Source of the DNA: a virus
Virus record (IMG/VR): IMGVR_UViG_3300032820_000023
Coordinates: 1-44,226 of that record
Length of the DNA stretch: 44,226 nucleotides
Reading direction: 5' to 3' (one strand)
Part shown: piece by piece, positions 145-35,573 of the stretch
Layout: each line of letters begins with the position of its first letter
How positions within the stretch are numbered: the first letter of the stretch is position 1
Position numbers and translations under genes: made by a program
Notes under the pieces: model-generated
Database searches by the model: none
Told to the model about the DNA's origin: nothing
The model's input: only the letters and a program-made list of their open reading frames with translations

Positions 145-396
145 TTATTTCACCGCTGCCTCCGCTTCAACCTCTGGCTCGGCTTGTTCAGTCATGGAAG
201 CCGTTAGCAAACTCATAAAGTGATTTCTACCACCGTGAGCTTGATCGAGGTTGAAGCTGATCTGTCGAATCTTGTTCTCCAAGTCAGCTACATGGTTGAG
301 TAGCGTGACTTGCTCCTGCGAGAGATCAGCTACGTTATGTTCCTCACCGTTGATAACAACGGTCTGTCCTTGTTCTTTTTCTTCTTTTTTAGCCAT
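145..396 (-). CDS. Small coiled-coil phage protein (DUF6447-like)
   Basis: 83 residues from the second ATG (MAKKEEKEQ); an in-frame ATG two codons upstream (402) is the alternative. After a charged start comes a short strand-rich segment (VVINGEEHNVADLS), then a helix likely to form a coiled coil (QVTLLNHVADLENKIRQ) and an acidic tail. Small proteins with the pattern 'INGxEYxVxDLSxEQ...LVNHVADL' are common near fibre genes of marine phages, and I believe they are called DUF6447. No biochemical role is known to me. It starts 9 bp after the stop of the giant fibre gene (406) and may be a virion or fibre-assembly accessory protein; that is inference from position only. Confidence 0.7.
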   Translation of the reverse strand: MAKKEEKEQGQTVVINGEEHNVADLSQEQVTLLNHVADLENKIRQISFNLDQAHGGRNHFMSLLTASMTEQAEPEVEAEAAVK

Positions 397-405
397 GACC
401 AAATT

Positions 406-3400
406 CTATGCTTCAAGCTGCTTCACCCGTGCGCTCAACTCCTGCACCGCCTTGATCAGCGGCATCACCAAGTTGCCATATTTCACACCAAGCATTCCGT
501 TGGGTGACTCGATAACCAGCGGGAAGTCTACGCCAGCTTCGTCCATCGCCGCCTTAACATCCTGCGCTATCAAGCCAATGTGCGGTGCTTCAATGTCGTC
601 TGGCCGGTCATCTGCCGGAACGGTGACTGTCTCGTAAACTGCATCCTTCGCCTCGACGGCGGCACTAACGAGTCGGCGTTCGGTGACTTCTTCACGCGCC
701 GGTTCAGCCGGTCTGGTGATGTGCGTCTCTGTCCACTCGTCCTTGGCTTCAACGACAACGACCTCTTCCTTGATCTCCTCTTGTGCCTCACGAACCAAGC
801 GGCGTTCAGTGTGTTCCTCCTTGGCTTCGCAAGTGCAGACGCGCTCGGTGACTTCTTCGACGGCTGGAATTGTGATCGTCTCGGTGACTTCCTCTACGGC
901 TGGTGTGACAGTCGTTTCGGTCTTTTCTTCCTGCGCCTCTTGCACAACGAACGTCTCGCGCACTTCTTCCTGTGCGGTCTGTTGGATGTACTCTTCCATC
1001 ACCGGACACTTGTGGATGACCGGCTCGGTGACTTCGGGTTGCGCCTCGACAGCTTCAACACCTTCTACCGCTTCGACTGCCTCCACCGCCGCCGTCTTCT
1101 CGTCGCCAACAGCTTTGCCTTCTGGTAACTCGTCACCTTCCTCGTAGTAAGTGGCGGCAACTGCCTCAACACCTTCTACGGCTTCAACCCCGGCAACAGC
1201 TTCAACTGCCGCTGACACAACAGTCACGCACGGTGTGCCGTCTGGATTGACTACCGGGTGATCTGTGTAAAGTGGTGTGCGCTCGATGCGCGTCTCTGTC
1301 TCGGTGATCTCGTTGCGAACGTAAGCATCGCCATCGCCTTTCACGAACTCAACGCGAGTCGATTCTTCGGTGACTTCCTTCTCACTGAACTTATGGCGTT
1401 CGCCTACGATCTCCTCACGCGCTTCCTGTGTCACTCGTTCCTCGGTGATCTCTTCTTGCGCGTGTTGGACGATGTGCGTGTCGCTGCGTTCCGGTTGACC
1501 GTGAACAACCACGTTCGTCTCGGTGCGTTCCGCTTCTGCGCGAACAACAACCTGATCCTCGTAGACTGCTTCTTCCGCTGGATGAACGATCTCTTCCCAC
1601 TCCTCGTCACACGCTTCTTGCACAACGCGCATTTCGCGTACTTCCTCAACTGCGGGATGAACTTCCTCGCGGGTTTCTTCCGCACACGCATCACACGCCT
1701 CTTGGACAACTACATCTTCCCACACCTCGTCGGCTGCTTTGACTGCTGGGGAGACAAGTTCTTCGTGAGTTGACTCCGACCACCTGCTTTCACGAATTTC
1801 TTCGGGGAAATCTGCCGGGTTGATCTTCTTAAAACTGACCGCGTTCAGCTTGTCAATGAAGTCCAAGCCAACCGCTGAATCAGCAACGTCCTTCTTAATG
1901 CGAGTGTCAGACGGTGAAACTATTGCCGTGTCGTAGCACCAAAGTCCGTTGGTCGAGTTGATCGACGAGTTCCCCAACATAATGGAATCCCCGCCTTGGC
2001 CAACCGCTGCGTAACCAATGGCAATTTCGTTCTCTACGCCAGTTGCAGCAGAACCGCGTGTCGCTGCACCAAGATATGTACACTCACGAATATCAGTTAT
2101 GGGTGTGCTACCATCCGCCAAGTAAGTACCAGCGAAACTGCCGATTCCTGTATTGAGATCGCCGTCATCAACATTAAGTCCGTAAAGTGCAGCATAACCA
2201 ATCGCTGTATTTTGTTCTTCCGCATTGTCGGCTCCAGCCAATGAGGCATAACCCATCACGGTATTTTTTACGCCAGCGGCAACTGCGGTAGCTGCCAGCG
2301 AACCAACAGCCGTGTTAGTAGCACCCGTTGCCAGCTGCAACGCTTGGTAACCAACTGCCGTGCTGCTGTCGGTAGTAGCAAGCGCACTCCCCGCTTGGTG
2401 GCCGATCAGCACGTTCTTTGTGCCGCTGGTGATTGCGTCACCAGCAGATGCGCCGATGGCCAAGTTGATATTGGCTGCGGCGTATGAAGCGTGTGCAAGC
2501 GCACTTGTCCCGATAGCTATGTTGTCTGATGTAGCGGCAGTACAACCACCTAGCGCATCTTTGCCAATGGCTATGTTGGCGTCAGCAGCACCAGCCAACG
2601 CATCAGCAGCTTGAAATCCAATGGCCACGTTGTAATCGCCGGTGGTCATTGCCGTGCCAGCTTTGTAGCCAACAAGTACGTTTCCGGGTGCGCCAGCTAG
2701 TGCCAATCCAGCATCATAGCCAACACAAGTGTTGTGATCGTTATCGCCAGCCGTGTGCATCGCGCGATAGCCAACAGCAACATTGCCATCACCTTTAGAC
2801 GCAAGCATCGCGGCGTGACCAACCGCAGTGTTTTGATCGCCGTCAGCGTGCGCGGCCAACGCGTTGCCAGCTATGTAACCAATCAGCGTGTTATCACCAG
2901 AACTCGTAATCGAAGCACCCGCATAATTACCAACTGCAAGATTGATGGCAGCAGAGTTTTGTGCAGCGAGTGCAGTGTAGCCGATTGCGATGCAGTGGTC
3001 TGAACCAGCTATGTCTGCGCTCAACGCACCAGACCCAATAGCTATATTGTAGTGTTCCCCACCATTGCAGCCGTCCAATGCACCGTGTCCAATAGCTATG
3101 CAATCGTGATTATCTACTAACGTTGTGCCAGCGTCCTTACCAATTAACACATTGGAATAACCAGTAGTCACCGCATCACCAGCAAGTGATCCTATGATTA
3201 CGTTGTCCTGTCCGGTCGTGATTACTTTGCCAGCAGCGTTGCCAACCAGCGTGTTGTCGCTGCCGTAGACATTGCTGCCACCATCTGTGCCGCCACCAAA
3301 CACACCGCTACTGCCAGCTTCGTAGCCAATTGCGGTGTTGTTCTTACCACCATAAGTAACTCCGTTGCCAAGATTGGTGAGTGCGTTGTAGCCAACTGCT

Positions 3401-6400
3401 GTGTTCTTTGAATCGACACGGTTCTGGAATGCCAATGCAGCATAGCCAATCGCGGTACAACCATCTGCGCCACTTGTTTCCGCGCTTAACGTATGTGAAC
3501 CGATTGCCGTGTTGTAGTGTTCGCCAGTATTCGCTGCGTCTAATGCGTTGATACCGATGGCTACGTTACTGATACTGTCTGTTAAAAGTTTACCAGCATC
3601 TCTGCCAACCAACACGTTGTCATATCCTGAACTAAGTGTGTAACCGGCGTTGTAACCCATCACAGTGTTACTATCACCACTCATTGCTGTGGTGGTGTCC
3701 TCGGTAGAACTGCCAGCAAACCCGCCAACTACGGTGTTGTAATTGCCTGTGCCTCTCGCATAAGACATCATACCTACCGCTGTGTTTCCGTGTGTATTAG
3801 CTATGTCATTACCCGCAAGATAGCCAACCAGCGTGTGATTAGTGCCACCAACAATCGCAGCACCCGCTTGACCGCCGATTGCCGTGTTCTTTACGTCAGC
3901 GTTTTGTGACTCTAGTGCGGCTTTGCCAATAGCTACACAATAATCTGCGCCAGATGTTTCTGCGCCTAATGCGCCCGTGCCGATTGCGATGTTGTGGTGT
4001 TCACCTGTGTTGGCAGCGTCTAAAGCACCGTGACCGATGGCTATGTTGTTATTGTTGTCTGTGAAATTTGCACCGGCTTCTGTGCCGATTAGCACGTTGT
4101 AAGCACCCGAAGTAAGATCAAAGCCAGCACTTTGACCTATTACCGTATTGCTCCCGCCGGTAATCACACCGTTACCGCCAGCGTCACTACCAATGTACAC
4201 GCTGTGGGTTCCACTCGTTATGTTCAGTGCAGCATCCTTACCGATAGCCACATTATGATCACCAGTAATCGTTCCAACACCACCGGCCAGATAACCCACA
4301 TACACGCTGTCTGTGCCACTGGTGAGTGCGACTGCTGCATTATAGCCAATCGCTACGTTGTTTGAGTTGTTGGTGTTTTGAACTTTTAGCGCACTAAACC
4401 CAACGGCTACACAACCACCGGCTGAATCTTCGCTTACAAGTGCCTCGTGTCCAATGGCTACATTACCTACTGCGTCTGTTACACTGCTTAATGCGCTGTA
4501 TCCGATACCTACGTTCTTATTCCCCGTAGTCGTTGCATCCAGCGCGTAGTTCCCCACGGCAATGTTCCAGTTGCCGGTGGCGTTGTCAGAATTGTCGCCA
4601 GCAGAGTCAGCGGCTTTTAGCGCCCTGTAACCAATCGCAATGCAGTCATCTACGCTGGTTGCGAAAGTGGCAGCATCGTTTCCAATAAAAGTGTTTCGGT
4701 TTCCAGTTGTTTGGTATCCAGCGTAAACACCAACCCCTGTATTATAGTCTCCTCCTGTACAGAACCTGAGGCTAAAAGCACCGACTGCCGTATTTTGCGC
4801 TCCGTCAGTTATCGCAGCAGCAGCACTATGACCAACCGCAGTCAGACTTGACGCACTCGTCGCTGCGCTGGCAGCACTAGAACCAACCGCTGTTGCGTTG
4901 CTTCCAGTGAATACAGCAAGTGTATCTTTACCGACAGCCGTGTTATCACTAACGCAATCTGCGTTTAACGCTGATGAACCAACAGCGGTGTTGTTTGCGC
5001 CATCAACCGTCTGCAACGAAGCATAACCAACAGCCGTGTTGTTATTTCCAGAAGTGGCTACGCCTAAAGCATCCTTTCCGACAGCAGTTAAATATGTCTG
5101 ACTACCAGCGGCGTCTGCCGCGTTGTAACCAACAGCGGTTGCGTCGCTGCCTGTGAACACATTGAGTGCCGCTCTACCGACTGCTGTGTTGTTACTCACA
5201 CAATCAGCACCTAACGCAACTTGGCCAACTGCGGTGTTGCTTGCACCGTCAACAGTTTGCAACGCACCCGTGCCAACCGCTGTGTTGTTATTACCGCTTG
5301 TGGCTGCACCTAAAGCACCTTGACCGACTGCTGTTAAATTTGTTTGTGCGACAGCTACATCCGCTGCACCAGAACCTATGGCAACTGCATTGCTGCCGGT
5401 GAATACGTTAAGTGCTTCAAAGCCGACAGATACATTGTTACTGACGCAATCTGCACTTAATGAACCAGCACCAACCGCAGTGTTCTGTGTGCCGTCAACT
5501 GTTCCGTTCAAACACGCAAAGCCAACGGCGGTGTTGTAATTGCCAGATGTGGCTGCACCTAAAGCATCTTTGCCGATGGCAGTTAAACCTACATTGCCAA
5601 CAGCGGCATCTGCTGCGCCGCTACCTACGGCAGTTGCATTGCTGCCGGTGAATGCTTCAAGTGTTTCGTGTCCAACAGCCGTGTTGTGATCAGCGCAGTT
5701 TGCGCCCAAAGCGTCTTTGCCAACCGCTGTATTGTAGTTGCCGTCATCACTAGAACCCAAAGCATTGTAGCCAACAGCTACTATGCTGGTCGCACTTGTC
5801 GCCGCATCTGCTGCTTTTGAGCCAATTGCTGTGGCATTGCTGCCTACGAAAACCCGCAACGCATCATCGCCTACCGCAGTGTTGTCATCGATACAATCAG
5901 CGTTTAATGCCTTATAACCAACTGCCGTGTTTCTGTTACCATCAACTGTCTGCAAAGATAATGCGCCAACTGCCGTGCCTTCAGTTCCTCCAGTTGCAGC
6001 CGCCATTGCGCTACTACCCACGGCTGTTGCATCACTGCCGGTGAATGCTGTGAGTGCTAATGCGCCAACTGCCACATTATCGTCTGCACAAGCCGCTCTT
6101 AGCGTATACGCGCCAACGGCAACATTTTGCAAACCAGATACCAAGGCTTCACCCGCCGCATAGCCAACCGCTGTATTGGCATCGGCAGCATTACTGGCGA
6201 GCGCACCCAGCGCATCTTCACCAATAGCAACATTTCGTATTGCGGTTCCGTATGACGCATTCGCATCTAGCGCATTTTTACCAATTGCCACACTTGAATC
6301 GACACCATTCGCACCGTGGCCAATGTCCAGACTGCCGACTGTGATGCTGCCAGACGGGATACTGACTACGCCAGTCGACGAGATGGTCATACGAGTGGTT

Positions 6401-6804
6401 CTAGCGCCCCCAGTTGCTTCGGTGCTAAATTCAAGTTTGCCTGCGTCAGCCGCACCGTCTTGCGCTGCGCCAACGTGGCACAAATACTTGTCACCATCTT
6501 GTGCGCCAAAATAAATGCTTCCCAATGAACCCGATGTGGCTCCGGCTGTGCGCGTCAGCAAAATATCCGGCTCTCCTGCGTGGTTGATTTGTATATGTCG
6601 GTCTGGCGCAGCGACACCAATACCCAATCGCAACGGATCACCCGCGCTGCCGCCTTCGACGAAGTAAATCCCCTCGCCAGCGTCTTGGTTGCTGTTGTCC
6701 CATTGCGTGACCGAACCAGCACCATCAGATTTGATGATGGGTTCGTTTTCTATCGTAATCCCCTGCGCCCTAATGGCTCTAGGGGGAGTAATTGATGCTC
6801 CCAT
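406..6804 (-). CDS. Giant YadA-like repeat tail fibre with C-terminal S74 intramolecular chaperone
   Basis: 2132 residues. Residues 1-170 form a non-repetitive N-terminal module likely to attach to the virion. Residues ~175-1620 are a long run of 14-20-residue rungs of the form N-T-A-V-G-x2-A-L, the head repeat of trimeric adhesins such as YadA, expected to fold as a trimeric left-handed beta-roll. At residue 1632 begins a peptidase S74 chaperone domain: S1632-D-T-R-I-K1637 carries the Ser and Lys (spacing +5) of the auto-cleaving endosialidase chaperones. Cleavage would release the C-terminus after folding. The domain resumes at H2075-I-G-L-I-A-Q-D-V and ends in a short coiled coil (ELSARVKQLEA). 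Between the two halves sits a ~400-residue acidic repetitive insertion. It follows the head genes and precedes the DUF6447-like gene. Likely role: receptor-binding fibre or tailspike. Confidence 0.9.
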   Translation of the reverse strand: MGASITPPRAIRAQGITIENEPIIKSDGAGSVTQWDNSNQDAGEGIYFVEGGSAGDPLRLGIGVAAPDRHIQINHAGEPDILLTRTAGATSGSLGSIYFGAQDGDKYLCHVGAAQDGAADAGKLEFSTEATGGARTTRMTISSTGVVSIPSGSITVGSLDIGHGANGVDSSVAIGKNALDANASYGTAIRNVAIGEDALGALASNAADANTAVGYAAGEALVSGLQNVAVGAYTLRAACADDNVAVGALALTAFTGSDATAVGSSAMAAATGGTEGTAVGALSLQTVDGNRNTAVGYKALNADCIDDNTAVGDDALRVFVGSNATAIGSKAADAATSATSIVAVGYNALGSSDDGNYNTAVGKDALGANCADHNTAVGHETLEAFTGSNATAVGSGAADAAVGNVGLTAIGKDALGAATSGNYNTAVGFACLNGTVDGTQNTAVGAGSLSADCVSNNVSVGFEALNVFTGSNAVAIGSGAADVAVAQTNLTAVGQGALGAATSGNNNTAVGTGALQTVDGASNTAVGQVALGADCVSNNTAVGRAALNVFTGSDATAVGYNAADAAGSQTYLTAVGKDALGVATSGNNNTAVGYASLQTVDGANNTAVGSSALNADCVSDNTAVGKDTLAVFTGSNATAVGSSAASAATSASSLTAVGHSAAAAITDGAQNTAVGAFSLRFCTGGDYNTGVGVYAGYQTTGNRNTFIGNDAATFATSVDDCIAIGYRALKAADSAGDNSDNATGNWNIAVGNYALDATTTGNKNVGIGYSALSSVTDAVGNVAIGHEALVSEDSAGGCVAVGFSALKVQNTNNSNNVAIGYNAAVALTSGTDSVYVGYLAGGVGTITGDHNVAIGKDAALNITSGTHSVYIGSDAGGNGVITGGSNTVIGQSAGFDLTSGAYNVLIGTEAGANFTDNNNNIAIGHGALDAANTGEHHNIAIGTGALGAETSGADYCVAIGKAALESQNADVKNTAIGGQAGAAIVGGTNHTLVGYLAGNDIANTHGNTAVGMMSYARGTGNYNTVVGGFAGSSTEDTTTAMSGDSNTVMGYNAGYTLSSGYDNVLVGRDAGKLLTDSISNVAIGINALDAANTGEHYNTAIGSHTLSAETSGADGCTAIGYAALAFQNRVDSKNTAVGYNALTNLGNGVTYGGKNNTAIGYEAGSSGVFGGGTDGGSNVYGSDNTLVGNAAGKVITTGQDNVIIGSLAGDAVTTGYSNVLIGKDAGTTLVDNHDCIAIGHGALDGCNGGEHYNIAIGSGALSADIAGSDHCIAIGYTALAAQNSAAINLAVGNYAGASITSSGDNTLIGYIAGNALAAHADGDQNTAVGHAAMLASKGDGNVAVGYRAMHTAGDNDHNTCVGYDAGLALAGAPGNVLVGYKAGTAMTTGDYNVAIGFQAADALAGAADANIAIGKDALGGCTAATSDNIAIGTSALAHASYAAANINLAIGASAGDAITSGTKNVLIGHQAGSALATTDSSTAVGYQALQLATGATNTAVGSLAATAVAAGVKNTVMGYASLAGADNAEEQNTAIGYAALYGLNVDDGDLNTGIGSFAGTYLADGSTPITDIRECTYLGAATRGSAATGVENEIAIGYAAVGQGGDSIMLGNSSINSTNGLWCYDTAIVSPSDTRIKKDVADSAVGLDFIDKLNAVSFKKINPADFPEEIRESRWSESTHEELVSPAVKAADEVWEDVVVQEACDACAEETREEVHPAVEEVREMRVVQEACDEEWEEIVHPAEEAVYEDQVVVRAEAERTETNVVVHGQPERSDTHIVQHAQEEITEERVTQEAREEIVGERHKFSEKEVTEESTRVEFVKGDGDAYVRNEITETETRIERTPLYTDHPVVNPDGTPCVTVVSAAVEAVAGVEAVEGVEAVAATYYEEGDELPEGKAVGDEKTAAVEAVEAVEGVEAVEAQPEVTEPVIHKCPVMEEYIQQTAQEEVRETFVVQEAQEEKTETTVTPAVEEVTETITIPAVEEVTERVCTCEAKEEHTERRLVREAQEEIKEEVVVVEAKDEWTETHITRPAEPAREEVTERRLVSAAVEAKDAVYETVTVPADDRPDDIEAPHIGLIAQDVKAAMDEAGVDFPLVIESPNGMLGVKYGNLVMPLIKAVQELSARVKQLEA
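586..1800 (-). repeat. Acidic ~13-residue repeat insertion inside the S74 chaperone domain
   Basis: Codons for residues ~1668-2072 of the fibre. The segment consists of degenerate units with the pattern E-E-h-T-E-x-h-h-h-x-x-A-x, for example EEVTETITIPAVE, EVTERVCTCEAKE, EHTERRLVREAQE. It is very rich in Glu, Val and Ala, with stretches of VEAVEGVEAVEA. Several Cys occur in pairs or near-pairs (CDAC, CTC). The repeats differ in sequence, so the array is old or diversifying. The flanks are the two halves of a normal S74 domain. Confidence 0.8.
1945..6280 (-). repeat. Array of NTAVG beta-roll rungs with a ~246-bp higher-order period
   Basis: About 90 coding units of 14-20 codons centred on N-T-A-V-G or N-V-A-I-G. 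In the part encoding residues ~215-700 they form a higher-order repeat of five rungs (about 82 residues, 246 bp), recognised by the recurring rung ending DCVSDN or DCVSNN. On the plus strand the corresponding sites lie near 4945, 5187, 5436 and 5684. Two shorter periods of about 195 bp (four rungs) lead to sites near 5881 and 6075. The remainder is less regular. This shows growth by segmental duplication, and it is a region where short-read assembly could be wrong in copy number. Confidence 0.8.
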
Positions 6805-28896: not shown

Positions 28897-29325
28897 TCAA
28901 CAATGTTTTTGCATTATTTTTACATTGTTTGTTAGTTCCGAAGATAGGAGGTTAAACGCGGACATATACTTCTCGCACACCGACCCCCCAGACCCGTCAC
29001 CAGAAAGACGGGCGGTAGTGGGCATTTCAGTGGTGGGTATCACATAAAAACTTTTGTGCATTAGACAGCATAATATGAAGAAGTCGGAGTCGGTTCTGGA
29101 GCGGGAATTGAACTTGTACATGGCCATCTTTGGCGAAACGTCCCCGCGCAGGAAGGGCTGCCGAGAGGTTTTGACTTGAATGCGGTGGTACTGGTTTGGG
29201 GTTGTCCCGGCTAGGAGGTCATACCCGTCCGTGTCCACTACTGGTTTTGCGAGGTAGAATCCGCGCTGAAGTAATTCGGCGGCAGTCAGGAGTTCCCCCA
29301 CGGCTCCCAAAGTTAAATCGTTCAT
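28897..29325 (-). CDS. PD-(D/E)XK-type endonuclease
   Basis: 142 residues. Active-site order: E11 (GELLTAAELL), D36 in DTDGYDLLAG, and Q50-x-K52 (HRIQVKTS). The Gln in place of Glu before x-Lys is common in Holliday-junction-resolvase-like and Mrr-like nucleases. The pattern 'DGYDLLA...IQVKTS' is also that of small nucleases linked to mobile introns (PDDEXK-type). It starts with an ATGA overlap to the end of the polyvalent protein gene (29322-29325). Probable role: DNA branch resolution or host DNA breakdown. Confidence 0.7.
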   Translation of the reverse strand: MNDLTLGAVGELLTAAELLQRGFYLAKPVVDTDGYDLLAGTTPNQYHRIQVKTSRQPFLRGDVSPKMAMYKFNSRSRTDSDFFILCCLMHKSFYVIPTTEMPTTARLSGDGSGGSVCEKYMSAFNLLSSELTNNVKIMQKHC

Positions 29326-32300
29326 TCTTCATTTACTAGGTCAACGAATTTTTTCTGGGTTTCACGGAGAAGTTTTTGTTTCTTGCCGTTTAACCCCTCC
29401 AGCTTTTTCTTTTTCTCGGCGCGATTAAACTTGGAAGATGCTTGCACATTTTTAGTGGCACTATTAAGTTCTCTTAATGTGGAATCTATGGCTTTGACTC
29501 GGCCAAGCATTTTGAGGGCTATTGCGTTGTCTTCCTTAAAATCTTTTATCGCGCGCGGCCCGGCCTTTTCCTTTCGCATCCTTTTCAGGGTGGCCTCCGT
29601 GGAGTACACGGTTTGGCGCAGTTCCTTGTGGTTCTGCATCTCGAAATATGGAGACGGGTCTTCTTGGAACCGGCGAATAATCGGAATGTCCTCCATTCGC
29701 AATCTACCTTCTGCCAGTTTGAATGGGGCGTCGATTACTCGGCTAATGCTTTGTCCCATGCCGCCGGTTAAAAATTGAACGGCGTAATCCAGATGTTCTG
29801 GTGAGAAATCTGCTACGCTGGAAGTTTCCCGGCTTCCTCCCGCGAGTGAGTTCAGTTCCCGTGTTAGGTTGGTTGACCAAGCGGCTGCGGTAGACCACTT
29901 CCTTTCAGACATGGGAATCTCGTATTTCTCAAACGGGTTACGATCCGGCATGATGCGGTCGCCTTTCCAATCCGTGTTGGTGGCGATGTCCACGATGGGT
30001 TTGCCGATTTCTGGCGTGAGTGAACGAAGTAGATTCCTTGAACCTCCAATGGGGTTGAAAGAGTTGATCGCGGCGTGGAGAGTGTCACCAATGGCAGTAC
30101 CCACTTTCTTTTTCCCACCCAACGCTGGGATGGTGGACGTTATTTGTCGCCCCGCGTAATACACTGTGTTATACCCGTAGGGCAGCATGACAGTTATGAA
30201 TTTACCATCCAGAAAATTGCCGTCTTTGTCTTTCAGTTTCTTTCCGGCGTGAATTCCGAACAGTTCTCCTATCCAATCCATTGGGATAATGATGTTTGAT
30301 TCCTTGACGTATTCGGGGATTTTGTCGTAGTCCGTGAAGCCGTCCTCGTCTTCTTCACCAACCATTTGGTTAAATAAATTTTCGAATGCCCCGGCCGCCA
30401 TCCCAGCCATCAATATCTTTTGCACCCGTGGAGATTTGGCGGCTTGGAGGATTCGTAGGTTGCCTCCAATGTTGGCGTTGTAGAACAGGTACGCCGCGTT
30501 CAGTGCCGTGCCCAACTCGCCTTTTTTCGTAAAATTAACCGTAATGTTTCGCGCCATAAACGCGGCTTGTTGCGGGGTGGCCTTGCCAGTGTCCATCACT
30601 GCCTTAAACACGGCCAACCGGGTGGCGTTTTCCATCGCGGCATTGGCGTCTTTCAGAATATTGAAAGCCCCCTTCACCAGTTTTCGTTCCGTGACAAATC
30701 GCGCTTTCGACCGCAACCGAAGTCTCGCGGCTTTCGCCACGTTCTGGGCTTTGGTCAAGCCTCTCGCATCCTTACTAAACACGGCTTCGGTGATTGAGTA
30801 TTTGTCTGGATTGAGCAGGGCATCGTATTCTTCGATTTTACGAATATTGTTCTCCAGATTGTGGAGGGAGGAGAATTCCATCTTGCCCCCATGTTTTCGC
30901 ATTAGCTTAAACGCCCTAACCATTTCAGAATCTTCTGTTTTACCTCGTTCAGTCTTCCAAATAGCTCTAAACGCGGGCATGACATTTTTCATGGTCGCCT
31001 TTTGAAGGGCGACTGCATTTTCTTCTGCCCCTAAATTGATCCCTGCCGTGAACAAATCCCGTGTAAAGTTGGAAAGCGGGAAGTCCACGTTCAGCATGGT
31101 GTTTGTCAATGCGCGCCACCGCATGAAACCGGCGACCATTTTGGTAAATTCTCCCAAGGTGGCCGTGCCCATTTCCTTTAAATTCTTGGCCAGTGCTTCG
31201 TGTTTCACCCGCAAGTACACATTTTCACCGTTGACGCGCAGGGCAACTATGTCGGAGTTGTTTTGCCAACCAGACTGTTTAACGTCCTTTACAGTGGCCT
31301 CTTCCACGATGTAGTCCACGCCGTCCACTTTCTCCATCTTGGCCGGGGTGCGTTTCGGTTCCAGTGGCGCGTTTTCTGTGGTGGCAAGTTCAATTACCTC
31401 ATTGTCGGGGTTGGCCTCGACCCAGTTTCGTATTGTCTGGTAGACCTTATTCCTCTCGGCGCGAGCCACGGCCGTGTCATGTTGTTCAAATACATAGGCG
31501 AGAATGTCCTGACTCCGCTCCCCGTGACCCAGCGCGTACTCGTTGTCGCGCCCCTTAATCTCTCCCGTGATGGGGATGTGGTTGCCGGACTGCTGGGAGA
31601 ACGGGTCGGAGTCGTGGTGGCCTTTTAGCGGGACGTAGTTTTTGTAGTAGTTGGACAGGGCGTCGAAGTCTTGTTGGGTAATTAGCCCGCCCTCAAGTTG
31701 AACTTGCAGGGTGCGTTTAGTGATCGCATAAATCTGCGACACAATCTTGTCGTACTGCTCCTGCTTGCCCGAATCACGGATTCTTTTGAGAACCTCCACC
31801 CGGTCGGCCTCGGTCATTCCGCTGCCGCCGTCTGGAAATTTCTTGTTTATTTTAGCGATATGGTCGTTTCGCTCTTTAGCGTGGAGGGCGTACAGATAGG
31901 CTTCCACATCTTCAAATGGAAGCTGCATTTCCTCCATTTGCTGCATTATGCCATCTATTTCTTCTCCAAATTTTGTGTGATTGGCTCCCAGAATCCCGTC
32001 CATTAGTTGCTGGGCTTGGTAGCCGTTGTTTGTGTCGGGGATTGCCTTGCCTGCTGCGTGGAGTTTTTGGAGGTGGTCGAGTCCGATAAATTTGTCGGCC
32101 AATACGCGAACGCCTGCGCTCCCCATCTTGGGGTGGAGGATGATTTCTATCCGGTCGCGGGCGGCTTTTCTAGCCTGACCCTCGGCCGTCAGAGTCCGGT
32201 CAGACCCGTAGAGGTCGGCCGTAACCCGTGCGCCCATGTCCTTGGGTCGGATAGCCCGCTTGGACTTGTACACATCCCATGCCTTCTTGACGGCGGCCGT

Positions 32301-35300
32301 TAAGTTTAATCCGGCGCGCTTGGCAAATTCTGCTGCGCTCTTGGCTCCGCGCGCCCCGTGGTAGTAGGCGAGTTTTACCAGACCCTTGAAGGCTTTCCAT
32401 ATTGGGGTTGGGTCAACGCCCATACTCATCTTGGTAGGGTCGCTTATGTCCTTTAAAGCGGCCTTGATTTCGTTCTTGGCTTCTTGGGCTTTTTGTTGAT
32501 TGGTGGCAACTGCGTTGGCCTCTCCCGTTAGCTTGGGGGTGGTTCGCGGAGGAAGGTGTTTTTTGTCAGCCACCACCAGTTCGTGGTATGTGCCGTCTTT
32601 TCGTACATTGACTGATGCGATTTGCTCAACGGGGACGTTTTCTTGGATGATTTTCCCGCCCTCGTAACCCTCCTGCTTTCCGATTTCTTCTACAAATTCT
32701 TTTGTGGTTGCCCACAGTTTGGTTGGTTTTTCTTTCTGTTTCCCGGTTTCTATGCGGTACAGAGGTATGGTGTCGCCGTATTGTTTGCGAAGTTTTTCGC
32801 GGGTTTCGGAAAAAGTATCGTAAAATTCCTGCGCGGATATCTCTGGGTCTTCGTTCTTTAGAATCGTGTCCACCCCGGTGTCTGCGTCGTGGAATGTCCC
32901 AGCCGTCAGTTGACTTACCTCCAAGAAAACTTTTTTAGATTTGTGTGCGTCAGTGTGCGCTTGGGCAACCACTTCTGGCGACAAGGTACTCTTGGTTTCA
33001 GACGGTTCTTTTACGTCCTCGACCTTGCCCGTGTCTGTTCCAACATTCTTCCGGTGGTCATAAAGCAGTGCGTCGTGTTCATCGACAAGAGCGGTGAATT
33101 GTTTCCCTTCTTTTTTGGTCAAGCCTCCTTTTTTGGCAAACGTCTTTAGCTTGTTGCGGAGTACCCTTCTCCGGGCGATGTTTTGTTTGTGTGCCTCGAC
33201 CCGCGCCTCGACCCGCGCTTTTTGTTTTTCTGGTTTTACTTTGGAAGGCGCGCTTGTCCCTTCCGGGGTTTTCATGTTTATAGAACCACCCGTTTTTGGA
33301 CTAGCTTCTTCAAAAGTATTTTTAGTCTGTTCCCAAGTTGCGTCTGGTTTTGTTGCTGGTCGCCTTCCAGCATCATACGCTATTTTCAACGCCGCCAGAG
33401 AGGACACTTGGCCTCCTAATTCTGGAAACATTTCAACAGCTTTCGCCATTAAAGCCTTTCCGTGTCCCTGCCCTCGCTTCCCTTCTGGAACAACGAAATC
33501 AACAACTGAATTTTTGTTGGGAGAATTGTCCACACCGCTTGCTATTTTTATGCGCCCATCCGGTGAAGATATTGTGGTTTCCGTCGCGCCTTCGTTGTAA
33601 AAGTCGGCGGCTTCTTGCGTTACCTCGAAGGTTTCTGTTTCGAGAGGGGGAGGAGGTGCGTCGGCCTCTTCCCGCAGATTTACCACCTCCGGTTTCGCCA
33701 CCTTGATTGGCGCGGCTTCCTTTTTCGGGATGTCCAGTTTGATGTCCAGCGGAACCGGCGCAATACTCGGTTTCCGATGATCCGTAACCTTGACCCCCGT
33801 GACCTCGGCCTCCTTCTCCGCAAATTTAATTTCAGCCTGTCGCGCCTCAAATCGTCCGCGCAAATCCGACAACCGCGCAATCTCATCGCTGATGTTCAGA
33901 CCGGGACTGGGCGTGGTCAGGTCGAGGTTGGGGTTCAGCACCCGCCCCACGTCCTTGTCAAATCCCAGTTGATCCAGTGTCGGGCCGCCTTCCGGCCAGC
34001 CAAACTGGAATTCCAGTTGCCCTTCTTCTATTGGAAATTCTGCCTTGGGGTCTTTGGCTCCCCGTTCCTGCATGGCGACCAGTTGCCTGATCCGGTTGTC
34101 CACCCAGCCCAGTGCGTCTCCCAGTCCCCCGTGGCCCATTCGCAGGAATGCTGCGCCTGCTCTGGCTCGCTGCGCCTGCATGGCGCGGGCTTCCGTGCCT
34201 GCGTCGAGGTGGGTTCCTAGTTCTGTCTGAAGGGTGGTGGGTGCTTCAACTCTAGTGACGGGATCAATGACGGTTGGCGAGTAGAGGAGGACATTGCCAT
34301 TACGGTCGAGAATTGGGGAAACCCCTTCTCCAGTGGCCATGACACCCTCATCAACGGGAATCCCCATCCCCGGCGGCGGAACATTTCTAGCATCCGGTGG
34401 CAGCACCAATCTGCCTTCAACGTCGATTGGCTTGCCTTCAATGACGACGGCCGCAGCTTGCGTACCCCTCTTTGCCCGTTCTGCCGGTGGAATCTGTCCT
34501 TCTTTAAGTCTTCGTGCTTGCTCACGTTCCTGCTCCAGTCCTCGTTGTACGATTATATCTGTCTGTGCCGTTATCTCCTGCTGGTCAGACTGGTATTGAC
34601 GGCCGCGCTCCAAGGCGTCGTCAATAAATTCTTCTCTACGTTTAAATTCTTTTCTGTGCGCTTGCGTCCGAATAGCTGTCGTCGGCAGGCCAACCAGTCC
34701 CTCTGCTGCTGCTGCTTTTGCTGCGTTCTGCCACAGTTCACCAGCGGTGTCGTAGCGGTTGACGCCCTGTTCCTCGCCAATAGCTTCCGCCGTTACGTCC
34801 GAGGCAATCGATCCCACACCACCGGCCGCCATATCCAAGCCCAACTCACTAATTGCCTTCCCGGTTACATCAACGGCTCCTCTGGACATGACCCGGCCGC
34901 CGACCTTGCCAACCCCTTTGGTTATCGCCCTAGTGCCGACTTTTCCAAAACCCGGCACAGCAGTGGAAACTACGGTTTCGGCAGCAGCATAGGCCGCGTC
35001 TGCATTGGAAATCTTGCGAGCCGTTTCATAGGCGGCATCCTTGTCGTCTATGCCGCGCTCCAGTTGTTTGGCTCGAATCTGGATGTAGGCGTCTTTAAAG
35101 GATGCGCCTTTTGCGGTTAAAGATTGGAGGGAGGTGACTGCGGCGGCTCCAGCAATGACTCCGCCGATTGGGGTGGTGAACGGGGAAGCGGCAATGCCTA
35201 TTCCCGCCCCCACCGCAAGGTCGCGTGTTACACCACCAACAATTTCTCCCGCACTGGCCCATGAGAAAAAGGCTGGGGGTTCCCCGCCTTCCTCGGTACT

Positions 35301-35573
35301 GTTTTGCCACTGGTTGAACTCGCCTTCCAGAAGGTCGATGGCGAACGGTTTGTCGTTTGAGATGACCAGTTTTCCTATGGCCAGACCGTCTTCGGCGGCT
35401 TCATAGGATTCCCCCCATGCTTCAGCGAATCGTCCGAGAAACCACGAAGTTTCGGGGTCGGCTACTTCATCTTCGCCGCCAAACTCTTTCGCAACAAACG
35501 CACCTATTTGGGCTTCGTCCCACTCGTCGGGCAACTTAATTTTGCCCACACCCTCGACTCGTATAATAGGCAT
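29322..35573 (-). CDS. Giant ejected internal virion protein (polyvalent protein with GNAT-like and LPD38-like parts)
   Basis: 2083 residues. The start (IRVEGVGKIKLPDEWDEAQI) is a common N-terminal motif of phage polyvalent proteins. Residues ~95-150 hold Gly/Ala-rich hydrophobic stretches (LAVGAGIGIAASPF, GGVIAGAAAV) that could cross a membrane on ejection. Around 650-760 is a GNAT acetyltransferase-like segment with the CoA motif VPEGKRGQGHGKALM at ~693. Around 935-1000 is an ADP-ribosyltransferase-like series (LYRIETG at 940, WATTKEF at ~955, YHELVV at ~998). The C-terminal third contains NAAMENATRLAVFKAV and NITVNFTKKGELG, typical of LPD38. It takes the place of T7 gp16-like channel proteins, lying after the other internal proteins. 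It has no lysozyme-like motif that I can see. Confidence 0.75.
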   Translation of the reverse strand: MPIIRVEGVGKIKLPDEWDEAQIGAFVAKEFGGEDEVADPETSWFLGRFAEAWGESYEAAEDGLAIGKLVISNDKPFAIDLLEGEFNQWQNSTEEGGEPPAFFSWASAGEIVGGVTRDLAVGAGIGIAASPFTTPIGGVIAGAAAVTSLQSLTAKGASFKDAYIQIRAKQLERGIDDKDAAYETARKISNADAAYAAAETVVSTAVPGFGKVGTRAITKGVGKVGGRVMSRGAVDVTGKAISELGLDMAAGGVGSIASDVTAEAIGEEQGVNRYDTAGELWQNAAKAAAAEGLVGLPTTAIRTQAHRKEFKRREEFIDDALERGRQYQSDQQEITAQTDIIVQRGLEQEREQARRLKEGQIPPAERAKRGTQAAAVVIEGKPIDVEGRLVLPPDARNVPPPGMGIPVDEGVMATGEGVSPILDRNGNVLLYSPTVIDPVTRVEAPTTLQTELGTHLDAGTEARAMQAQRARAGAAFLRMGHGGLGDALGWVDNRIRQLVAMQERGAKDPKAEFPIEEGQLEFQFGWPEGGPTLDQLGFDKDVGRVLNPNLDLTTPSPGLNISDEIARLSDLRGRFEARQAEIKFAEKEAEVTGVKVTDHRKPSIAPVPLDIKLDIPKKEAAPIKVAKPEVVNLREEADAPPPPLETETFEVTQEAADFYNEGATETTISSPDGRIKIASGVDNSPNKNSVVDFVVPEGKRGQGHGKALMAKAVEMFPELGGQVSSLAALKIAYDAGRRPATKPDATWEQTKNTFEEASPKTGGSINMKTPEGTSAPSKVKPEKQKARVEARVEAHKQNIARRRVLRNKLKTFAKKGGLTKKEGKQFTALVDEHDALLYDHRKNVGTDTGKVEDVKEPSETKSTLSPEVVAQAHTDAHKSKKVFLEVSQLTAGTFHDADTGVDTILKNEDPEISAQEFYDTFSETREKLRKQYGDTIPLYRIETGKQKEKPTKLWATTKEFVEEIGKQEGYEGGKIIQENVPVEQIASVNVRKDGTYHELVVADKKHLPPRTTPKLTGEANAVATNQQKAQEAKNEIKAALKDISDPTKMSMGVDPTPIWKAFKGLVKLAYYHGARGAKSAAEFAKRAGLNLTAAVKKAWDVYKSKRAIRPKDMGARVTADLYGSDRTLTAEGQARKAARDRIEIILHPKMGSAGVRVLADKFIGLDHLQKLHAAGKAIPDTNNGYQAQQLMDGILGANHTKFGEEIDGIMQQMEEMQLPFEDVEAYLYALHAKERNDHIAKINKKFPDGGSGMTEADRVEVLKRIRDSGKQEQYDKIVSQIYAITKRTLQVQLEGGLITQQDFDALSNYYKNYVPLKGHHDSDPFSQQSGNHIPITGEIKGRDNEYALGHGERSQDILAYVFEQHDTAVARAERNKVYQTIRNWVEANPDNEVIELATTENAPLEPKRTPAKMEKVDGVDYIVEEATVKDVKQSGWQNNSDIVALRVNGENVYLRVKHEALAKNLKEMGTATLGEFTKMVAGFMRWRALTNTMLNVDFPLSNFTRDLFTAGINLGAEENAVALQKATMKNVMPAFRAIWKTERGKTEDSEMVRAFKLMRKHGGKMEFSSLHNLENNIRKIEEYDALLNPDKYSITEAVFSKDARGLTKAQNVAKAARLRLRSKARFVTERKLVKGAFNILKDANAAMENATRLAVFKAVMDTGKATPQQAAFMARNITVNFTKKGELGTALNAAYLFYNANIGGNLRILQAAKSPRVQKILMAGMAAGAFENLFNQMVGEEDEDGFTDYDKIPEYVKESNIIIPMDWIGELFGIHAGKKLKDKDGNFLDGKFITVMLPYGYNTVYYAGRQITSTIPALGGKKKVGTAIGDTLHAAINSFNPIGGSRNLLRSLTPEIGKPIVDIATNTDWKGDRIMPDRNPFEKYEIPMSERKWSTAAAWSTNLTRELNSLAGGSRETSSVADFSPEHLDYAVQFLTGGMGQSISRVIDAPFKLAEGRLRMEDIPIIRRFQEDPSPYFEMQNHKELRQTVYSTEATLKRMRKEKAGPRAIKDFKEDNAIALKMLGRVKAIDSTLRELNSATKNVQASSKFNRAEKKKKLEGLNGKKQKLLRETQKKFVDLVNEE

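Follow-up and report, generated by a model that had tools for sequence, protein, structure and literature searches.

A predicted hairpin insert in the S74 domain of phage tail fibres grows in paired units and scales with fibre length

The DNA analyzed here (the window) is a virus record of 44,226 bases. A tail-fibre gene on its minus strand (positions 406 to 6804) encodes a protein of 2132 residues that has an N-terminal region, a long repetitive shaft of AVG coils, and a C-terminal S74 chaperone; all features of the fibre given below lie on this strand. The protein matches the PHROG 4636 tail spike family (E = 5.6e-145), and its shaft is matched by PHROG tail-spike models. Residues 1 to 1631, upstream of the predicted cleavage serine (1912 to 6804), consist mostly of coil repeats of about 16.8 residues, which is the mean spacing of AVG coils over the armed fibres, those whose S74 domain carries the paired arms described below. 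Directly after the fibre gene lies a gene for an 85-residue protein (145 to 402, minus strand) that matches PHROG 21153 (function unknown) and might be fibre-associated. Elsewhere in the window, a 2083-residue protein (29322 to 35573, minus strand) contains an LPD38 domain (Pfam E = 3.6e-29), and toward its C terminus it resembles PHROGs 14770, 616, and 10691, which are very large phage proteins without an assigned function.

By profile, the C-terminal domain of the fibre is an S74 chaperone. Pfam Peptidase_S74 (PF13884) gave two separate matches around an insert (E = 2.4e-9; 37.8 bits versus a 22-bit cut-off). The C-terminal 501 residues thus form an S74 domain split in two, with SDTRIKKDV starting at Ser1632 and GLIAQDV at residue 2077. 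The first half (residues 1632 to 1666; 1807 to 1911) extends to strand A′ and an NPAD motif. It begins with the S-D-x-R-x-K motif (here SDTRIK), which holds the Ser/Lys dyad: the predicted nucleophile Ser1632 (codon at 1909 to 1911), with the predicted scissile bond immediately N-terminal to it, and the predicted catalytic Lys1637 (codon at 1894 to 1896). Neither residue of the dyad varied across an alignment of 42 sequences, which included 30 armed ones as well as unarmed ones. According to Pfam and AlphaFold2, the second half (residues 2077 to 2132; 409 to 576) comprises strand B′ (GLIAQDV), a helix, a short tentacle, and the C-terminal helix. From the serine to GLIAQ the distance is 445 residues, which is extreme among S74 relatives; ordinary ones have 35 to 70 residues between the two motifs, mostly 60 to 67 among the unarmed viral ones.

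The S74-type chaperone of T5 pb1 is composed of a loop, an A′/B′ hairpin, a long hairpin called the tentacle, and a C-terminal helix, and the A′B′ loop is partly disordered in T5 and helix bearing in K1F (PMC4690869). Since the stretch before NPAD is A′ and GLIAQDV is B′ in the window fibre, the insert was placed in the A′B′ loop. An earlier, sequence-only reading of this DNA had proposed that the domain is interrupted at a surface loop. That proposal holds, by the T5 pb1 description (PMC4690869) and by AlphaFold2, which recovered S74 secondary structure on both sides. The span proposed at that time, 586 to 1911, does cover Ser1632 to residue 2073 and leaves the second half of the domain just outside. 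An extension of the tentacle was considered and rejected, because in T5 the tentacle follows strand B′ and hence GLIAQDV (PMC4690869).

The insert comprises about 410 residues in units of about 13 (23% E, 16% V, and 11% A), with a net charge of −76. Identity autocorrelation exceeded that of composition shuffles at a lag of 13 residues (z = 6.3) and, less strongly, of 12 (z = 4.1). The acidic Glu/Val/Ala units of about 13 residues first noticed by eye were therefore confirmed, while their description as a degenerate repeat gave way to a paired, two-armed hairpin that has grown by units and scales with the length of the fibre. A tandem array at the DNA level was rejected, as TRF reported only two short arrays within the insert. 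In four comparisons dN/dS was 0.13 to 0.32, and the insert is under purifying selection as a protein. When the insert alone was searched, Pfam gave no match above cut-off and PHROGs gave none at E up to 1. Neither database thus supports a known independent domain, the alternative that had been raised in the sequence-only reading, and this candidate was rejected.

Within the insert, two arms flank a core. The N-arm (residues 1667 to 1803; 1396 to 1806) has 137 residues, the longest size class found, and the C-arm (residues 1936 to 2076; 577 to 999) has 141 residues and the same number of units. The core between them (residues 1804 to 1930; 1015 to 1395) varies in length among relatives. Its central beta-hairpin (1273 to 1389; strands 175 to 191 and 197 to 213 of the domain) was predicted by AlphaFold2 with a pLDDT of about 87 to 90, and the same hairpin is present in the model of a short family member, L058. 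An EAVE-rich sub-insert in the core (1042 to 1215), with low pLDDT and the motif LPEGKAVGDEKTA or close variants, was found by alignment in the window fibre, L031, L037, and L038 and is absent from most relatives; it seems to expand as a piece of its own.

To see how the arms vary, armed relatives were drawn from scans of viral contigs, which yielded, along with many unarmed ones, more than 40 armed S74 domains whose two motifs lie 143 to 445 residues apart. The last two scans added few loci, and the set reachable by these scans is near saturation. Arms could be measured by sequence anchors in 42 proteins. In alignments, relatives lose equal amounts on either side of the central core. Among 30 distinct relatives measured from fixed anchors, N-arms fell into classes of 60, 72, 85, 98, 111, 124, and 137 residues (plus or minus one) and C-arms into classes of 65, 78, 91, 104, 117, 128, and 141 residues (plus or minus one to three). 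The lengths of the two arms were correlated in these 30 relatives (r = 0.999, slope 0.98), as they were by independent contrasts (r = 0.999) and in all 42 proteins, which include more distant members (r = 0.995). Core length was almost independent of the arms (r = 0.37 in the 30 relatives). One-unit insertions and deletions in the two arms mirrored each other in their distance from the core (66 non-independent pairs, r = 0.90); between the window fibre and L036, for instance, the missing unit is 73.5 residues from the core in each arm. Matched arms and mirror-position indels are what an antiparallel hairpin paired lengthwise predicts, and we know of no other simple explanation for the two together. 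The insert is best read as one long antiparallel hairpin paired along its length, and equal arms and mirror indels are its signature. Mirror-position indels also mean that, even with no structure available, variation in length can suffice to reveal how the strands of a repeat protein pair.

Structure was predicted for single chains with AlphaFold2. The model of L058 (279 residues, 42 sequences) had a mean pLDDT of 72, with the whole insert built of beta strands about a central DG turn, mostly at pLDDT 70 to 86. Its S74 elements were helices at 14 to 21, 227 to 237, and 256 to 278 and strands at 25 to 28, 221 to 224, and 244 to 246/252 to 254, so that the helix, the A′ and B′ strands, the tentacle hairpin, and the C-terminal helix of the S74 fold are all present in the model. 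The window model was of lower confidence (mean pLDDT 57.9, with low values in the arms and high ones in the core hairpin); helices and tentacle were present, and A′ and B′ were unassigned as strands. The check proposed in the sequence-only reading was a trimer prediction; the single-chain models recovered S74 elements on both sides of the insert, and the insert itself is predicted to be a beta-hairpin. A hydrophobic-moment test gave the arms a hydrophobicity period of about 4.1 residues, which fits neither a regular helix nor simple beta alternation well, and the test was given no weight in choosing between helix and strand. Searched against BFVD, the L058 model matched most closely, and over its full length, an S74 fibre from E. 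coli phage ZQ2 (E = 1e-9); other S74 fibres of uncultured phages followed at E above 0.001. Collagen-repeat proteins from Pithovirus and Klosneuvirus gave borderline matches, which may perhaps reflect S74-like chaperones in giant viruses. A Foldseek search of the PDB with the L058 model gave nothing significant (the intramolecular chaperone 3gw6 was at rank 50, E = 2.2). Among PDB sequences, phmmer found no match to the whole C-terminal domain, and a profile found a single weak S74 match, 8jov (E = 0.22).

The length of the insert follows the length of the fibre. Among the 17 complete fibres obtained first, a longer stretch upstream of the serine went with a longer Ser-to-GLIAQ distance (r = 0.92; contrasts r = 0.87). 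The line from these 17 loci predicted 11 complete fibres found later with an RMSE of 28.5 residues and an R2 of 0.91. Over all 28 complete fibres, r was 0.964 and the distance equaled 0.20 × upstream length + 87, or about one extra insert residue per five of shaft. Independent contrasts of insert and upstream length gave r = 0.93 (n = 27), with 22 to 24 of the 27 in the same direction at every branch-length floor tried, on a weakly resolved tree that was built from the conserved S74 halves (about 95 residues) and includes some near-duplicate loci. The main clade alone gave r = 0.93 (n = 22). The arms alone were likewise correlated with the shaft (r = 0.94, n = 21 fibres), at one paired unit per 169 to 192 shaft residues. 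The second half of the S74 domain stayed constant at 56 to 61 residues in the 28 complete fibres. Stacked beta coils rise about 4.8 Å per coil. At 16.8 residues and this assumed rise, one paired unit corresponds to 10 to 11 shaft coils, or about 48 to 55 Å, to be compared with about 43 Å for 13 residues as a beta strand and about 20 Å as a helix. This near agreement of unit and shaft dimensions fits an arm extending along the shaft without proving it.

Some relatives delimit the rule. A distant clade (L211-L218) lies on the scaling line; since its shafts are different and it has one fixed arm size where measured, with only core length varying, it tests mainly the intercept. The shortest insert in the main family (L208, 4245 to 4844) has 143 residues on an upstream part of 601 residues. 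It is the largest outlier from the line (−69 residues), and its core has apparently been lost. Armless S74 relatives with the same type of shaft reach 1193 residues (L063), and arms are therefore no general need for such shafts.

The best explanation, in which we place about even confidence, is that the insert is a transient scaffold arm extending from the A′B′ loop, with a reach matched to the shaft, and that it is probably discarded on cleavage. According to this model, a very long antiparallel two-stranded hairpin arm would grow from the A′B′ loop of the S74 intramolecular chaperone, and each of the three chains in the trimer would contribute one such arm, protruding at the tip of the fibre. 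As a shaft gained coils, paired 13-residue units would be added to both strands of the arm. During folding, the arms would act as a transient scaffold, lying back along or around the nascent shaft so that its three chains stay joined and in register; once Ser1632/Lys1637 had cleaved the chain, the arms would depart with the chaperone. We also propose, more tentatively, that the arm is a full-length folding template or ruler, with one 13-residue rung per 10 to 11 or so shaft coils, that is discarded by cleavage after folding. A point against an arm matched to the shaft is that the A′B′ hairpin of T5 points sideways (PMC4690869). Shaft and arms are both negatively charged, and for that reason the idea that the arms clamp the shaft electrostatically was discarded. 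Of the roles first suggested for the insert (spacer, assembly scaffold, or solubility tag), the scaffold gains most, and a paired hairpin scaled to the fibre speaks against a spacer. Phage biologists and protein engineers have yet to explain how trimeric beta fibres of great length fold with all their chains in register. If a chaperone tracks its client by a unit rule, it would offer a testable handle on fibre folding, as well as on the length co-evolution of two parts of one gene.

The scaffold model was weighed against the possibility, which we consider rather unlikely, that the paired hairpin is an acidic bristle that keeps the unfinished fibre soluble and unaggregated, its size following that of the passenger without the arm running along the shaft. 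All but one of the 28 armed fibres are strongly acidic, at −13 to −20 charges per 100 residues. Shaft length can be predicted about equally well from the whole insert as from its arms, and additional length may sit in the core rather than the arms. However, a solubility tag requires neither exact matching of strands, nor mirror-position indels, nor a fixed unit, and long-shafted relatives such as L063 do without arms.

It is improbable, and we disfavor the view, that the hairpin is real and the arm-shaft correlation arises only from shared ancestry, recombination, or lineage-wide repeat expansion. Repeat proteins do expand and contract readily, the loci are related on a weakly resolved tree, and arms in the distant clade are invariant in length. 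Nevertheless, the correlation survived independent contrasts at all branch-length floors, and the line held out of sample.

The scaffold model also assumes cleavage. In T5 and K1F, an Arg located 14 residues before the serine (Arg1250 of T5) senses correct folding. This Arg was absent at −14 from the window fibre and its close relatives, the main armed clade. Arg or Lys was found there in 6 of 46 armed entries, all from the distant clade and making up most of it, and 34 ordinary S74 relatives also lack the Arg at that position. The sensor belongs to the T5/K1F cleavage mechanism and not to profile-based S74 membership; with the main armed clade lacking it, cleavage is not to be taken for granted. 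The chaperone might then be retained, through loss of cleavage or because the trimer remains bound after being cut. The arms would in that case belong to the virion, where they might, for example, extend to the cell surface or shield the fibre. Chaperones that linger as transient fibre caps have been proposed for Alteromonas phages (PMC10579305). We judge retention to be quite improbable, given the invariance of the catalytic Ser and Lys in armed and unarmed sequences alike. A disordered acidic spacer with no structure of its own, which low complexity, strong acidity, and low pLDDT in parts of the window model might suggest, is hardly credible in view of the quantized, equal arms with mirror indels, which essentially refute it, the beta strands of the L058 model, and purifying selection.

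T5 pb1 (PDB 4UW8) and the K1F endosialidase (3GW6) share with the window fibre the Ser/Lys motif, strands A′ and B′, the helix, the C-terminal coiled-coil helix, and the position at the fibre end. They have a short A′B′ loop, and the long hairpin of T5 is the C′-F′ tentacle of about 40 residues (PMC4690869). In the window fibre, by contrast, the tentacle is short, the A′B′ loop holds the hairpin of about 410 residues, and the Arg sensor is absent. The suspicion that similar expansions occur in other phage fibres was borne out: beyond the 42 proteins with both arms measurable and the distant clade, inserts at the same place occur in cultured phages. S74 fibres of E. coli phages ZQ2, 1-6bf, 1-6af, and FH3 and of Pantoea phage ROV85 carry an insert in the same A′B′ loop. 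In the three of these sequences that were read, 129 residues separate Ser from GLIAQ. On visual inspection the insert resembles the core seen in armed fibres; it lacks repeated arms. When profiles of kuravirus-type S74 domains and the armed family were compared, only the second S74 half aligned, so homology of the inserts is supported by predicted fold and position and not by sequence score; no relative was found when the kuravirus insert served as query.

The nearest precedents for a hairpin sized to its fibre are, by analogy, chaperones of Alteromonas and Salmonella phages. In gp9 of Alteromonas phage A5, the chaperone beta-hairpin is extended (about 88 Å as modeled) alongside an enlarged fibre, and in the A5 and V22 chaperones a longer tentacle accompanies a duplicated knob (PMC10579305). 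Unlike the insert in the window, A5 gp9 and its relatives are separate proteins with only two size variants, a hairpin likened to the tentacle, and no unit-wise growth. The S74-like tail-fibre chaperone of Salmonella phage S16 is predicted to place two hairpins against the fibre body, with no repeat units or scaling with fibre length reported in that paper (PMC10579305). In the literature covered, which took in few subscription journals, no account of unit-wise paired growth or fibre-length scaling was found.

A profile scan of bacterial genomes revealed no armed member of the size seen in the window. One distance of 537 residues was rejected as a motif mismatch. The longest genuine insert was in Ensifer oleiphilus (L117, 8001 to 8180), where an S74 domain has an A′B′ stretch of 179 residues with a different sequence, suggesting that the A′B′ loop takes inserts more widely.
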